Assembly: GCF_001571405.1 (NCBI RefSeq) | Contig: NZ_BCNX01000004.1 | Span: 124,001 to 188,000, forward strand | Direction: 5' to 3' | DNA length: 64,000 nt | From: Methanoculleus thermophilus | GTDB lineage: Archaea > Halobacteriota > Methanomicrobia > Methanomicrobiales > Methanoculleaceae | Part shown: positions 43,668-64,000 of the stretch, piece by piece | How positions within the stretch are numbered: the stretch's first letter is position 1 | How the letters are laid out: each line of letters starts with the position of its first letter | The notes under the pieces: model-generated | What the model was told of the DNA's origin: nothing | Database searches by the model: none | The model's input: only the letters and a program-made list of their open reading frames with translations | Program-made: the position numbers and the translations under genes

Positions 43668-45791
43668 TCAGGCGGGCACCTGCTCCATCTTCTCCCGGTC
43701 CCAGTGGCGGTGCCGGGCGATGGCCGTCTTGAACTGCTCGACAAACGAGCTCACATTCCCCTGGCTCCCGCAGGTCACGACCCCCATCTCGGAGACGGCT
43801 TCTCCTCCGGCACTGGCATCGACGAAGGCCACCCCCTTGATACCGGAGGCCTTCAGGAGTTCGATCCCCTCTCCTATCGCCCCGATCGGCTTGCAGTGCT
43901 TGAAGGCCTCGTTGACGAAGTGGATCGCGTAGCCCTGGTTCTTCAGGGTCTCCGCGTGCCTCCCGCCCGGGACGTACACGGCGTCGTACACGACCGATGC
44001 GGTGGTGACGTAGCTCTTGTCCACCTCCATCTCCTTGCCGTCGGCGGACCTGACCGTGCCGAGGAACTGCGAGACGATCTGCGGGTGAGCCCCCGCATCT
44101 TTCAACGCCTTCTTGACCTGCATCACCTCGTCGTGGTTGTAGCCCTCCATCGCGAGGATCGCAATCTTGCGGCTCTTGATGGTGTCCATGACGGTCCTCT
44201 CCTGGCTGAGGTTCGGGGACTTCTTTGTGCCGGAGGACGCGCCCTTCTCCGCCGGGGGCGGCACCCCGATCCCTTCGGCGATCCGTATCGCAAGATCGCC
44301 GTCGACGTTGTTTATGAGGTCGACCACCCTCTTCCTGACCCCGAAGTCCGAGACCTTCCCGAGTTCGAAGTGGAAGGCCTTGATGATATGCTCCTTCTCT
44401 GCATCCGACATGCTGTTCCAGAAGAGCTTCGCCTGGCTGAAGTGGTCGTTGAACTTCTCGCTCCGTGCACGGATCTTCTTCGCGTCGATCTTCTCCTGGT
44501 GGTGGGCGTAGCCGCCCTCCTCAACCCGGGCCGGCCGGGGCTTGTTATCGCCGAGCGAGTTTGGGAAGTAACTCGCAGCGCCCTTATCGATCGTCATCCG
44601 GTGGTAGCCCTCCCGCTGGTTGTTCGCGACCGGTGCGAGCGGCCGGTTGATCGGGATCTCGTGGAAGTTCGGGCCGCCGAGGCGTATCAGCTGGGTGTCC
44701 AGGTACGAGAAGAGCCGGCCCTGGAGGAGCGGGTCGTTTGAGAAGTCGATCCCCGGCACGACGTTCGCCGGGCAGAAGGCGACCTGCTCGGTCTCGGCGA
44801 AGAAGTTGTCCGGATTTCTGTTTAAGACCATCTTCCCGATCCACCGGATCGGCACCTCCTCCTCGGGCCAGATCTTCGTCGCGTCAAGGATATCGAAGTC
44901 GAAGTTGTGCTCGTCTTCCTCCTCGATCATCTGGACCCCTAACTCGTACTCCGGGTAGTCCCCCATCTCGATCGCCTCCCAGAGGTCGCGGCGGTTGAAG
45001 TCCGGGTCCATTCCGGCCAGTTTCTGCGCCTCGTCCCAGACGAGCGAGTGGATGCCGAGGAGCGGCCGCCAGTGGAACTTGACGAACCGCGCCTTTCCTT
45101 TGGCGTTGATGAACCGGAAGGTATTGACCCCGAAGCCCTGCATCATCCGGTAACTCCGCGGGAGCGCACGGTCCGAGAGGACCCACATGATCATGTGCGT
45201 GATCTCGGGGAGATTCCCGACGAAGTCCCAGAACGTGTCGTGGGCGGCGGAGGCCTGCGGCATCTGGTGGTGCTGCTCCGGCTTGATGGCGTGGACGAGG
45301 TCGGGGAACTTGATGGCGTCAACGATGAAGAAGATCGGCATGTTGTTGCCGACGAGGTCGTAGTTCCCTTCCTCGGTGTAGAACTTCGTCGCAAACCCCC
45401 GGACGTCCCGGACCGTGTCTGCCGACCCCCGGAACCCGACGACGGTCGAGAATCGCACGAAGACCGGCGTCTTCTTCTCCGGATCCTGGAGAAACGCTGC
45501 CTTCGTATACTCGGTCATCGGCTCGTAGACCTGGAAGTAGCCGTGGGCGCCCGAACCCCGGGCGTGGACGACCCGCTCGGGGATCCGCTCGTGATCAAAA
45601 TGCGTCAACTTCTCGCGGAAGTGAAAGTCTTCGAGGAGCGTCGGCCCCCGCTCCCCCGCCTTTAACGCATCATCGGTGTGGCTCACCCGGACACCCTGGT
45701 TCGTTGTCAGGTACTCGCGTTCCGGGTCGTGACGGAATTCGTCGAGTTGCTCCTGCTTGCTCTTCTCATCCACTTTTCTCCTCTGATCCAT
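43668..45791 (-). CDS. katE: large-subunit catalase, HPII type, with C-terminal DJ-1/PfpI domain
   Basis: 707 residues. The catalase core has VVHARGSGAHG with the essential His at about residue 76, FVRFSTVVGFRGSADTVRDVRGFATKFYT, the distal Asn in YDLVGNNMPIFF, and the proximal heme tyrosine in GRLFSYLDTQLIRLGGPN. After a linker (about 525-540) comes a glutamine-amidotransferase-like domain (KIAILAMEGYNHDEV; AVYVPGGRHAETL; GIELLKASG) as in E. coli HPII. It decomposes hydrogen peroxide and requires heme, which the Ahb genes at 61-64 kb could supply. Probably acquired from bacteria. Confidence 0.95.
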   Translation of the reverse strand: MDQRRKVDEKSKQEQLDEFRHDPEREYLTTNQGVRVSHTDDALKAGERGPTLLEDFHFREKLTHFDHERIPERVVHARGSGAHGYFQVYEPMTEYTKAAFLQDPEKKTPVFVRFSTVVGFRGSADTVRDVRGFATKFYTEEGNYDLVGNNMPIFFIVDAIKFPDLVHAIKPEQHHQMPQASAAHDTFWDFVGNLPEITHMIMWVLSDRALPRSYRMMQGFGVNTFRFINAKGKARFVKFHWRPLLGIHSLVWDEAQKLAGMDPDFNRRDLWEAIEMGDYPEYELGVQMIEEEDEHNFDFDILDATKIWPEEEVPIRWIGKMVLNRNPDNFFAETEQVAFCPANVVPGIDFSNDPLLQGRLFSYLDTQLIRLGGPNFHEIPINRPLAPVANNQREGYHRMTIDKGAASYFPNSLGDNKPRPARVEEGGYAHHQEKIDAKKIRARSEKFNDHFSQAKLFWNSMSDAEKEHIIKAFHFELGKVSDFGVRKRVVDLINNVDGDLAIRIAEGIGVPPPAEKGASSGTKKSPNLSQERTVMDTIKSRKIAILAMEGYNHDEVMQVKKALKDAGAHPQIVSQFLGTVRSADGKEMEVDKSYVTTASVVYDAVYVPGGRHAETLKNQGYAIHFVNEAFKHCKPIGAIGEGIELLKASGIKGVAFVDASAGGEAVSEMGVVTCGSQGNVSSFVEQFKTAIARHRHWDREKMEQVPA

Positions 45792-59231: not shown

Positions 59232-60313
59232 TTAGTAGTGCCGCCGGAGGACGCTGCAGACCTTCTCCGACTCGATCCATCCCTGGCTAAGTCGGTCGAC
59301 GAGGGCATTGATGACGGCGGCCTGCCGGGCGATCTCCCTCGAATTCGCTGATCCCTCCATCGCGGCGAGCCCCATGATCATCTGCAGGGGCTGGCGGATC
59401 TGGTCGCTGAGGGCGGCAGACTGTTCGATGCTCTGCTCGATCCGGGAGAATACCTTCCGCCGGAGTTCCTCCATCTTTTTCCGCTCCGAGATATCGCGGG
59501 AGATCGAGAGGACGGTCGTCTTCCCCTGCAGGGGGAAATGGAGCGAGTTGATCTCGACCGGTACCCGGTTCCCGCCCTTCGCGACGTGCTCGCTTTCGTA
59601 GAGGATCCGGTCGTTTAAGCGGAACTGCTTTAAGATGGCAAGGACCTCGCCGAGCCTCTCCGGGGGGACAATATCGAGCGGCGAACGGGCAGCAGTTCGT
59701 CGCGGGAGTAGCCGAGCCGTCTGCAGGCGACCTCGTTTGCTTCGACGAACCGGGTCGGCACCGACTCGGGGGAGAGTTCGAAGACAAGGATGGCATCGTT
59801 CCCCTTCTCAAAGAGCGTCCGATACCGCTTCTCGCTCTCGACGAGGCACCGCTCCGTGAGTTTCCAGCGCGTGATCTTCCGGTATATCTCAAGCCTATTG
59901 TTGCGCACCGGGTAGATCTGCATCGGCCGGCTTGAGTATTCAAGCCAGCATTCCTCGCCGTTAGGCTTACGAAGGTGCAGTTCACGGGTGCCGGCGGTCG
60001 CTATAACCTTCTCAGCATCCTCGACCAGCGGGTTGATGAACCGGTGCGTAAATACCCCGGCGGGCATCCCGGCGACGTCGGCCTCGTTCAGGTCAAAGAG
60101 CCGCCGCATGCTCGCGTTTACCCACCTGACTCGGTTCTGCTCGTCGATGAGAGCGATCCCGTCCTCAAACTCATTGAGCACCTGGTAAATGGTGAAGAGG
60201 AGGAAGTTCTGCATGCGTGAGTGCGGGTCAGTGCCCGTTTCGGGGCAGGTCGCTCCGCTCCGCCTGGTCTGGGGATCCGGGGGAGTCTCGGTTGCCGAAT
60301 CGTCGTTCAGCAT
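59232..60313 (-). pseudogene. PAS-domain sensor protein gene with a -1 frameshift
   Basis: From ATG 60313 the first frame encodes about 208 residues with one full PAS domain (about 45-150, GIALIDEQNRVRWVNASMRRLFDL) and the start of a second (EKRYRTLFEKGNDAILVFEL ... GYSRDELLPV). It then runs out of sense. In the -1 frame from about 59676-59692 the second PAS continues (LDIVPPERLGEVLAILKQF ... FPLQGKTTVLSISRDISERKKM), followed by EQSAALSDQIRQPLQMIMGLA and the stop at 59232-59234. The tail resembles a kinase dimerisation helix without the phospho-accepting His, and no ATPase domain follows. One lost base or a sequence error. Confidence 0.7.
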
Positions 60314-61303: not shown

Positions 61304-62875
61304 ATGTCGAAAGCAACTGAGATGGGGTGCATGGAGCGCACGAAGGGCCCGGCCCTGATCTCGTGGAACGTCACCCTCCGTTGTCCGCTGATGTGCGCCC
61401 ACTGCTACGCGGACGCTGGCGTTGACGAAGCGGAAGGTGTCCTCTCGACCGCCGAAGCGCTCTCGGTCATCGATCAACTCGCGAACACCGGAAGGCCCAT
61501 CGTCGTCCTCTCCGGGGGAGAACCCCTGATGCGGGAGGATATCTTCGAGATCGCCCGCTACGGGACTGAACGGGGACTCGTGATGGCGATGGGCACGAGC
61601 GGGTACCTCCTCGATAAGGCGACGGCGAAGCGGCTCAGAGACGCAGGAATCCGGTCGGTGGCGGTCAGCATCGACTCCGCCGACCCGGATACCCACGACG
61701 CGTTTCGCGGCGTTGCCGGCGTATGGGAGCGGGCGGTCGCGGCGATCAAGCACTGCCGAGACGCGGGGCTCGGCGTCCGGATCAACATGACGGTCATGCG
61801 CCCCGTCCTCGCCGACGTCGAGGAGGTCATCGCTCTCGGCGAATCCCTGGGTGTCCGCGACTACCAGGTCTTCCTCCCGGTGGAGACCGGGAGGGGACGC
61901 GGACCCGGGCAGGGCAGCCCCCGCGAGTACGAGGACCTGATCCGGGCTCTCCTCCTCCGGTACCGGGAGAGCAATCTCCGGATCCGGCCGACGTGCTCAC
62001 CCCAGTTCCGCCGGATTGCCGACGAAGTCGGGATTGAGAATCGCGGCTGGAGTCGGGGCTGCATGGCCGCCATCAGTTACTGCCGGATCTACGCGACCGG
62101 GGAGGTGACGCCCTGCCCCTATCTGCCGGTGAGCGCGGGCAACCTCCGCACCACGCCGTTTTCTGAGATCTGGAATAATTCGGAACTCTTTCTCGCCCTC
62201 CGCGACCCGGACCGGCTTGCCGGGAAGTGCGGCCGGTGCGGCTACAAGACGGTCTGCGGCGGGTGCCGGGCGCGGGCCTGCCGCGGGGTTGATTTCGTTC
62301 CGGCCCGGTGGTGCGACGGACTCATGCGGCCCGATGACCCCTGCGGGGAGATCACCCGCGAAGACCCGTGGTGCCCCTACGAGCCCGGGGGCCCCGACCG
62401 GACCGATCTTGCGATCCTCGACGCCCTCCAGGGCGACCTCCCCCTGGTCTCGCGCCCGTGGGCCGTCATCGCGGAGAGAGTCGGGCTTGCGGAGGATGAG
62501 GTCGTCGCAAGGATGCGGCGGCTTCAGTCCTTGGGCGTCCTCCGCAGTGTCTCGCCGGTCTATGAATCGCGGAAGTTCGGGCTTGCCGCCGCGACCCTGG
62601 TCGCCCTCCGCGTCCCGGAGGACCGGGTGAGCGAGGTGGCGGAGGTCGTCAGCACCTACCCGGAGGTCTCGCACAACTTCCGGCGTGACCACGCCTACTC
62701 TCTCTGGTTCACCCTCTCCGCCCCGACAGAGGAGCGGCTCTCCGCGGTGCTCGCGGAGATCCTCTCCCGAACCGGCATCCCAAAGGAGGACACGCTCAAC
62801 CTCCCCACCGTCCGGGCCTATAAGATCGACGTGCGGTTCCCGCTCTCGGAGGAGGGGTCGTATGGATCCGACTGA
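61304..62875 (+). CDS. ahbD-ahbA: fusion of AhbD-like heme synthase (radical SAM) and AhbA-like siroheme decarboxylase
   Basis: 523 residues from ATG 61304 (ATG 61322 or 61331 also possible). Residues 1-360: radical SAM domain with CPLMCAHCY (Cys27, Cys31, Cys34), VLSGGEPLMREDI, DTHDAFRGVAGVWERA, FLPVETGRGRG and SPASM-type cysteines CGRCGYKTVCGGCRARAC, as in heme synthase AhbD. Residues about 365-520: Lrp/AsnC-like winged helix plus PEVSHNFRRDHAYSLWFTL, the siroheme decarboxylase AhbA pattern. The two steps bracket the pathway (siroheme decarboxylation first, coproheme to heme last). Overlaps ahbB by 14 bp. AhbD and AhbA are separate genes in the organisms where they were characterised. Confidence 0.78.
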   Translation: MSKATEMGCMERTKGPALISWNVTLRCPLMCAHCYADAGVDEAEGVLSTAEALSVIDQLANTGRPIVVLSGGEPLMREDIFEIARYGTERGLVMAMGTSGYLLDKATAKRLRDAGIRSVAVSIDSADPDTHDAFRGVAGVWERAVAAIKHCRDAGLGVRINMTVMRPVLADVEEVIALGESLGVRDYQVFLPVETGRGRGPGQGSPREYEDLIRALLLRYRESNLRIRPTCSPQFRRIADEVGIENRGWSRGCMAAISYCRIYATGEVTPCPYLPVSAGNLRTTPFSEIWNNSELFLALRDPDRLAGKCGRCGYKTVCGGCRARACRGVDFVPARWCDGLMRPDDPCGEITREDPWCPYEPGGPDRTDLAILDALQGDLPLVSRPWAVIAERVGLAEDEVVARMRRLQSLGVLRSVSPVYESRKFGLAAATLVALRVPEDRVSEVAEVVSTYPEVSHNFRRDHAYSLWFTLSAPTEERLSAVLAEILSRTGIPKEDTLNLPTVRAYKIDVRFPLSEEGSYGSD

Positions 62876-63350
62876 TCTCGCCCTTCTTTCAGAACTTGAG
62901 AAGGGGCTCCCTCTGGTCACCGAGCCGTTTGCAGAGATCGGGCGATGGCTCGGCATCCCGGAGGCGGAGGTGCTCCACCGGGCGCAACGCCTCCGCGAAG
63001 AGGGGGCGATCCGGAAGATACGGGCGCGGATCAACCAGCGGCTCCTCGGGATCACGGCAAACGCCCTCGTCGCCTGGCGCCCGCCCGGGGGGTGGGACGG
63101 GGAGGACTTCTCCCGGTTCGCGTCCGCTCCCGGGATCTCCCACTGCTACCTGCGCCGGCCGGTGCCGGGGAGGTGGGAGTACACCCTGTATACCGTGCAC
63201 CACGGGAGGAGCCGGGAGGGGGTGCTCGCCGCGGTCGAGGAGATGGCCCGGGCGGCGGGGTGCAGCGATTATATCGTGCTCTTCAGCACCGAGGAGTACA
63301 AGAGGGTGCCGAACGTGCGCATCAACGAGAACGGAGGCGGTCTACCATGA
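62862..63350 (+). CDS. ahbB: siroheme decarboxylase subunit (AhbB-like)
   Basis: 162 residues starting MDPTDLALLSELEKGLPLVTEPFAEIG. Lrp/AsnC-like helix-turn-helix in the first 55 residues, then the ligand-binding part GISHCYLRRPVPGRWEYTLYTVHHG, whose HCYxR...W.Y.LYTxxHG pattern is that of AhbB/NirL. With AhbA it converts siroheme to 12,18-didecarboxysiroheme. The helix-turn-helix is a relic of regulators, so DNA binding is not implied. ATG 62862 lies inside the end of the fusion gene; the stop forms an ATGA overlap with ahbC. Confidence 0.85.
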   Translation: MDPTDLALLSELEKGLPLVTEPFAEIGRWLGIPEAEVLHRAQRLREEGAIRKIRARINQRLLGITANALVAWRPPGGWDGEDFSRFASAPGISHCYLRRPVPGRWEYTLYTVHHGRSREGVLAAVEEMARAAGCSDYIVLFSTEEYKRVPNVRINENGGGLP

Positions 63351-64000
63351 ACAGGATCACACAGTGCATGCACGGACGGGGAACGGTCAGCAGCGTTATG
63401 CACCACCGAGACAGGCCTCTTTCAGAGGTGCCGGGAAAGTACCTCGCGTTCATGCAGGACTACCGGCCTGTCGTCTTCTGGAACCTCACCGACCGGTGCA
63501 ACCTCGCCTGCGCCCACTGCTACAGCCGGTCCCGGCCGGACTTGATGACAGACGACGAACTCTCGACCGGCGAAGCCCTCGCGCTCATCGACGACCTCGC
63601 CGCGGCGGGCGTCCCGCTCATCCTCTTCTCCGGCGGCGAACCCCTCCTCCGCGAGGACCTGCCGGAGTTCGCGCGTGCGGCGGCGGAACGCGGGATCAGG
63701 ACCGCGCTCAGCACGAACGGCACGCTGATCACCTCCGATGTCGCCCGGATGATCAAGGAAACCGGGATCGGCTACGTCGGGATATCGCTCGACGGCGCGG
63801 GGCCGGAGACTCACGACACGTTTCGGGGGTGTGAGGGTGCGTTTGCAAGGGCTGTTGAAGGGTTTGCCCGGTGCCGGGAGGCTGGCATCCGGACCGGCCT
63901 CCGGGTCACCCTGACGAGGGAGAACATGGGGGAACTCGAGGCCCTACTCGACCTTGCGGGGACGCTCGGAGCCTCGCGGTTCTGCCTCTACTGGCTTGTG
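63347..64000 (+). CDS. ahbC: 12,18-didecarboxysiroheme deacetylase AhbC, 5' part (continues beyond window)
   Basis: 218 codons are present, without a stop. MNRITQCMHGRGTVSSVMHHRD precedes PVVFWNLTDRCNLACAHCYSRS (Cys51, Cys55, Cys58 for the radical SAM cluster), ILFSGGEPLLREDLPEFA and GISLDGAGPETHDTFRG. The last residues RFCLYWLV match the AhbC/NirJ strand before the PSGRG loop. It would convert didecarboxysiroheme to Fe-coproporphyrin III. Coupled to ahbB by a 4-bp overlap. Confidence 0.88.
   Translation, partial: MNRITQCMHGRGTVSSVMHHRDRPLSEVPGKYLAFMQDYRPVVFWNLTDRCNLACAHCYSRSRPDLMTDDELSTGEALALIDDLAAAGVPLILFSGGEPLLREDLPEFARAAAERGIRTALSTNGTLITSDVARMIKETGIGYVGISLDGAGPETHDTFRGCEGAFARAVEGFARCREAGIRTGLRVTLTRENMGELEALLDLAGTLGASRFCLYWLV

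Follow-up and report, generated by a model that had tools for sequence, protein, structure and literature searches.

Why should the enzyme that acts last in the oxygen-independent, siroheme-dependent heme pathway be joined, in a single chain, to a subunit of the enzyme that acts first? The question is raised by a gene of Methanoculleus thermophilus found in a stretch of 64,000 nucleotides (hereafter the window; positions 124,001 to 188,000 of contig NZ_BCNX01000004.1). In Methanosarcina barkeri, the AhbA/AhbB heterodimer decarboxylates siroheme, AhbC makes iron-coproporphyrin III and AhbD makes heme b (PMC3942049). In the interpretation that we consider likely, the gene encodes a bifunctional chain that combines AhbD with AhbA and is paired with AhbB, the chain stems from a one-off fusion of neighboring genes, and the operon chiefly supplies heme to catalases.

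The fused gene and its operon

The open reading frame is in frame from 61157 and runs, single and uninterrupted, to a stop at 62875 on the forward strand; four Pfam domains, Radical_SAM, SPASM, the NirDL-like HTH and AsnC_trans_reg2, are recognized in it, all over the respective cut-offs. The earlier note on this DNA had proposed an AhbD-AhbA gene fusion at 61304-62875, and both the fusion, with its two domains in one intact and conserved frame, and the end of the gene stand. The start, however, has to be moved: the ATG at 61304 lies out of frame in relatives, L011 and L015 among them, and a comparison of L011, L013 and L015 indicates 61322 or 61331 as the conserved, likelier starts. The features of the locus are as follows.

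61331..62875, forward strand: ahbDA fusion gene, 514 aa from 61331 (523 aa from 61304), based on the ORF and on start conservation in L011, L013 and L015
61355..62389, forward strand: AhbD-type radical SAM/SPASM part (TIGR04545 322 bits, TIGR04055 321 bits; tree; motif; Foldseek radical SAM/SPASM matches)
62371..62400, forward strand: junction ...DPWCPYEPGG/PDRTDL..., with practically no linker
62396..62839, forward strand: AhbA part, an HTH and an AsnC-like ligand domain with the SHNFRRDHAYSLWFT motif (NF040708 133 bits, PF22451, PF17805; nearest solved structures NirDL 4ch7 and AhbA 4czd_A)
62862..63350, forward strand: ahbB, separate partner subunit of the siroheme decarboxylase (P0002; NF040707 140.4 bits, over the cut-off of 125)
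63347..64000, forward strand: ahbC, 393 aa, extending beyond the window to about 64528 (L003:3348-4529; TIGR04546 is the best match, at 326.7 bits, well under the equivalog cut-off of 650)

The separate ahbB and ahbC genes thus follow the fusion, as had been claimed; ahbB overlaps the fusion by 14 nt, and ahbC overlaps ahbB by 4 nt (ATGA). Elsewhere in the genome, siroheme supply is represented by a SirC-like gene and a CbiX-type chelatase. The only two PF17805 matches in the genome are the fusion and AhbB, so that the fusion is the sole AhbA; it is also the sole AhbD-like radical SAM protein besides AhbC, the next match scoring 68 bits. These profile searches rule out an additional, unfused AhbD or AhbA elsewhere. 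A separate AhbA translated from an internal start is ruled out as well, since the 20 codons that precede the AhbA domain include no start codon.

The same intact frame is present in eight genomes, seven of the window's genus (its own genome counted) and one of another family, with fusion protein identities of 75-89% and with a single-contig genome (G088) among them, which excludes both an error of assembly and an ORF that is open by chance. Although a separate fusion in genome G375 (see below) could be an indel, given that its 93% identical sister is split, it is extremely improbable that the fused gene is decaying or stems from an error of sequencing or assembly, a possibility already refuted for the window's clade.

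The C-terminal half (residues 370-512) scores 133.4 bits against the model of the siroheme decarboxylase alpha subunit AhbA (NF040708), narrowly missing the curated cut-off of 140 bits, compared with 75.4 bits against the AhbB model. Among solved chains, two siroheme decarboxylases come closest, NirDL with E = 1e-42 and AhbA with E = 7e-29, whereas Lrp-type chains match with E-values of 5e-8 or weaker. A NirDL-like HTH and an AsnC-like domain over the Pfam cut-offs, greater closeness to the decarboxylases than to the DNA-binding Lrp-type regulators and an AhbB partner encoded alongside together identify this half as a siroheme decarboxylase domain, as the earlier note had it, and not as an ordinary regulator of the Lrp/AsnC family. 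An AlphaFold model built on 32 aligned sequences (pLDDT 78, pTM 0.65) shows two folded parts and a drop in pLDDT at residues 361-363. Radical SAM/SPASM enzymes and AhbA/B are the matches obtained for it with Foldseek; the model supports the existence of two domains, not their mutual placement or their placement relative to AhbB.

Distribution and origin of the fusion

AhbA is present in 86 of the 232 genomes of the class and is fused to AhbD in eight of the 86 (an AhbA frame longer than 500 aa was found in eight genomes, and inspection of the ORFs at these loci then confirmed AhbD in frame). The domain pair thus recurs among homologues, a point that had been raised for checking, within one clade: the eight fused genomes, namely G000, G050, G061, G063, G068, G074 and G078 from one genus and G088 from another family, are monophyletic in the AhbD tree (support 100/99), and the named fusion-bearing contigs include Methanoculleus sp. 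UBA77, NL_3.1, Afa-1 and UBA430.

In the loci examined the gene order is D-A-B-C, and in the split relatives ahbD is located directly upstream of ahbA. In about half of the split relatives listed, 14 nt separate the ahbD stop from the conserved start of the AhbA domain, usually with an ATGA overlap. Relative to L113, the nearest split sequence in the tree, 26 nt are missing from the fused junction by hand count, and with these nucleotides the stop is gone and the ahbD and ahbA frames are united. Because the two genes are neighbors in the split relatives, the joining of the "last" enzyme to the "first" follows the ancestral gene order. Within this clade the fusion has a single origin, probably through a small deletion at the junction of adjacent, translationally coupled ahbD and ahbA genes, and has probably been retained as one chain with a fixed 1:1 output.

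Split operons also occur in the window's genus, and their AhbD proteins are only 54-58% identical to the fused type. The existence of at least two unlike ahb operons in one genus suggests replacement or transfer. Several of these split operons of the same genus (L101, L098, L104, L117, L124) carry katE directly downstream, on the same strand.

A second AhbD-AhbA fusion, P0003 (locus L166, genome G375), belongs to another family, and the tree requires two gains. This fusion has a different junction, with a linker rich in Pro, Gly and Glu; it is found in one genome, and the 93% identical sister is split by frame. Judging from these sequences, the second fusion is probably real and independent. 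In one genus of that other family (L174 and L166), the AhbA frame stays open in the sequence that precedes ahbA. This sequence resembles the linker of the fusion, also in cases in which ahbD terminates in a different frame, as though a single indel had made or undone the fusion.

Possible roles of the fused chain

We infer that the N-terminal AhbD part would convert iron-coproporphyrin III to heme b, the product of the operon, that the C-terminal AhbA part would pair with the separate AhbB to form the siroheme decarboxylase, which converts siroheme to 12,18-didecarboxysiroheme, and that AhbC, encoded by the next gene, would perform the step between AhbAB and AhbD.

Under an alternative scenario, raised in the earlier note, the fusion nucleates a four-protein Ahb complex in which the unstable intermediates between siroheme and heme would be channelled. 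The order of the reactions speaks against such a scenario, in that AhbD does not use the product of AhbAB: AhbC intervenes, and it is unfused in every copy seen here. AhbA and AhbB of M. barkeri do copurify (PMC3942049), and the adjacency of the D and A genes, which is also observed outside the class, together with the apparently independent fusion in G375, might indicate that closeness is favored. However, 78 of the 86 AhbA-containing genomes of the class have split genes, the second fusion is confined to one genome, with its own junction and linker, and the choice of partners is explained by gene adjacency alone, without channelling. On balance, channelling appears unlikely.

It is similarly doubtful that the chain serves to link the last step of heme synthesis physically to the first, through heme feedback or within a complex that delivers heme to catalases, and that it arose twice because such coupling is useful. 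In the specific version of feedback, heme from the AhbD half would be passed to the heme-binding AhbA/AhbB and inhibit or destabilize the first step. The heme-forming site and the AhbA domain are indeed located on one chain with almost no linker, and AhbAB of M. barkeri was isolated with tightly bound heme b, which led the authors to propose feedback; nevertheless, the heme occupancy of that complex was just 0.03, and a section of the same article is headed "Heme Does Not Inhibit the In Vitro Enzyme Activity of Purified AhbAB" (PMC3942049), which makes this mechanism quite improbable. The simplest reading remains a bifunctional chain that performs the AhbD step and pairs with AhbB via its AhbA part.

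Heme use and the link to catalases

Across the class, KatG is encoded in 54 genomes and KatE, counting strong matches, in 64. At least one of the two is present in 77 of the 86 genomes with AhbA, compared with 36 of the 146 genomes without it (Fisher p = 5e-23, a value that overstates independence given that the genomes are related); the remaining 9 of the 86 have no strong catalase match. The association extends to gene neighborhoods: a catalase gene lies within 6 kb of ahbA in 50 of the 86 loci, katG is directly upstream of the operon and on the same strand in 25 genomes, and katE is located beside the operon in 23. In six of the fused genomes, katE is convergent and just past ahbC; the window's genome lacks that copy. 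Its single match to the catalase family (PF00199) lies about 16 kb from the ahb genes, without adjacency:

43668..45791, reverse strand: HPII-type heme catalase, 707 aa, probable heme user (NF008422 1071 bits, cut-off 1102; PF00199 E = 2e-183; ORF)

This large-subunit catalase carries a C-terminal PfpI-like domain. Other candidate heme users fared worse in the window's genome: KatG is absent, the HPII-type KatE being present instead; the hydrogenase cytochrome b family PF01292, the sole cytochrome family searched, is absent; and there is no heme user among the genes that flank the operon. The main job of the operon in these methanogens would be the provision of heme for catalases, and the heme made by the ahb genes probably serves these enzymes. 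Peroxide defense would be a simple reason for the presence of a heme pathway in methanogens that are regarded as cytochrome-less. No earlier report of a link between ahb genes and catalases was found in the literature searched, the coverage of which is incomplete.

The pathway has been viewed differently in previous surveys. The ahb genes were reported in Methanoculleus marisnigri, Methanoregula boonei and Methanosphaerula palustris (Storbeck et al., 2010; PMC3004389), whereas a 2021 survey found AhbABCD in none of 32 Methanomicrobiales and proposed the use of environmental heme (PMC8351635). The detection of AhbA in 86 of 232 genomes, with the D-A-B-C order in the loci examined, supports the former report and contradicts the latter: many Methanomicrobiales carry an AhbABCD operon.

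The radical SAM half: AhbD or NirJ2

The identity of the N-terminal half bears directly on the product of the operon. Residues 18-326 match the models of heme b synthase AhbD (TIGR04545, 321.6 bits) and NirJ2 (TIGR04055, 320.7 bits) nearly equally, and the split relative L113 even scores higher with NirJ2 (344 bits) than with AhbD (306 bits), so that AhbD and NirJ2 cannot be told apart by HMM scores alone. The curated equivalog cut-off of TIGR04545, 500 bits, is missed by the fusion; it is reached by none of the 61 relatives, and the fusion P0003 of the G375 family scores 401 bits, which suggests that the cut-off is tuned to Methanosarcina-like members. The radical SAM motif CX3CX2C is present (CPLMCAHC). 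The C-terminal auxiliary-cluster motif is CX2CX5CX38C and departs from the published spacing CX2CX5CX20C.

Within this motif, the AhbD proteins of Methanomicrobiales, both in the window (62230-62390) and in split relatives, carry roughly 18 inserted residues, among them a conserved WCDGL. The long tail, being common to the split relatives, is not a product of the fusion.

In a tree of AhbC and over-cut-off AhbD sequences, in which NirJ2 was not included, the radical SAM half falls on the AhbD side, separated from AhbC by a branch with 100/100 support. The heme synthase assignment of the earlier note is thereby supported, with a score below the curated cut-off, and the outcome that would have spoken against it, assignment to a non-heme family, did not come about. 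Given the score and the spacing of the tail, we treat this half as an AhbD orthologue by descent and context that forms a divergent branch, and do not claim strict membership of the equivalog.

The near-equal scores and the aberrant tail could also be taken to mean that this half is a NirJ2-like or other enzyme acting on tetrapyrrole side chains, and that the operon yields a modified tetrapyrrole rather than heme b. The grouping with AhbD types in the above tree, the complete set of A, B, C and D in the operon and the ties of the operon to catalases, which use heme, render this version very unlikely. The AhbC/D-like radical SAM proteins (about 280-320 bits) encoded in the AhbA-less genomes G056, G027, G044, G011, G079 and G118 look like a separate paralogous family.

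Relation to known systems

Such a fusion has been described before: a 2024 study devotes one sentence to the joining of ahbAB and ahbD in five assemblies of Methanomicrobia (cluster 36.2; mSystems; PMC11237513). There, too, genes for a siroheme decarboxylase and a heme synthase are combined within this broad archaeal group, and the proteins are very likely the same; however, in the gene analyzed here AhbA alone is fused, and AhbB is separate. The present analysis corrects and details that passing mention, adding the exact make-up and order of the fusion, its single origin, the history of the junction, the link to catalases and a probable second fusion.

The M. barkeri proteins AhbD (Mbar_A1458) and AhbAB (Mbar_A1459/A1460) belong to the same four-protein siroheme-dependent route (PMC3942049); as in the window, AhbA and AhbB are separate subunits, and the locus tags of D, A and B are consecutive, but AhbD and AhbA are separate proteins, and the tail has the CX20C spacing instead of CX38C. 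Most other archaea have AhbAB fusions of the NirDH type (PMC3004389; solved NirDL 4ch7/4czc), which also lie within the Ahb route and involve AhbA, but they join two subunits of one enzyme, whereas the fusion described here joins enzymes from opposite ends of the route. The closest arrangement is that of the split ahbD-ahbA-ahbB-ahbC operons of other Methanomicrobiales (L113, L115, L141; M. marisnigri and M. boonei, PMC3004389, Table 1), which have the same gene order and the same insert in the AhbD tail. The nearest of these show about 60-70% identity. All differ in having ahbD and ahbA as two genes, which commonly overlap in an ATGA.

Also in the window, a PAS-domain sensor at 59232-60313 on the reverse strand appears split into ORFs in different frames (59630-60313, 59287-59985 and 59232-59474) and is possibly a frameshifted gene.
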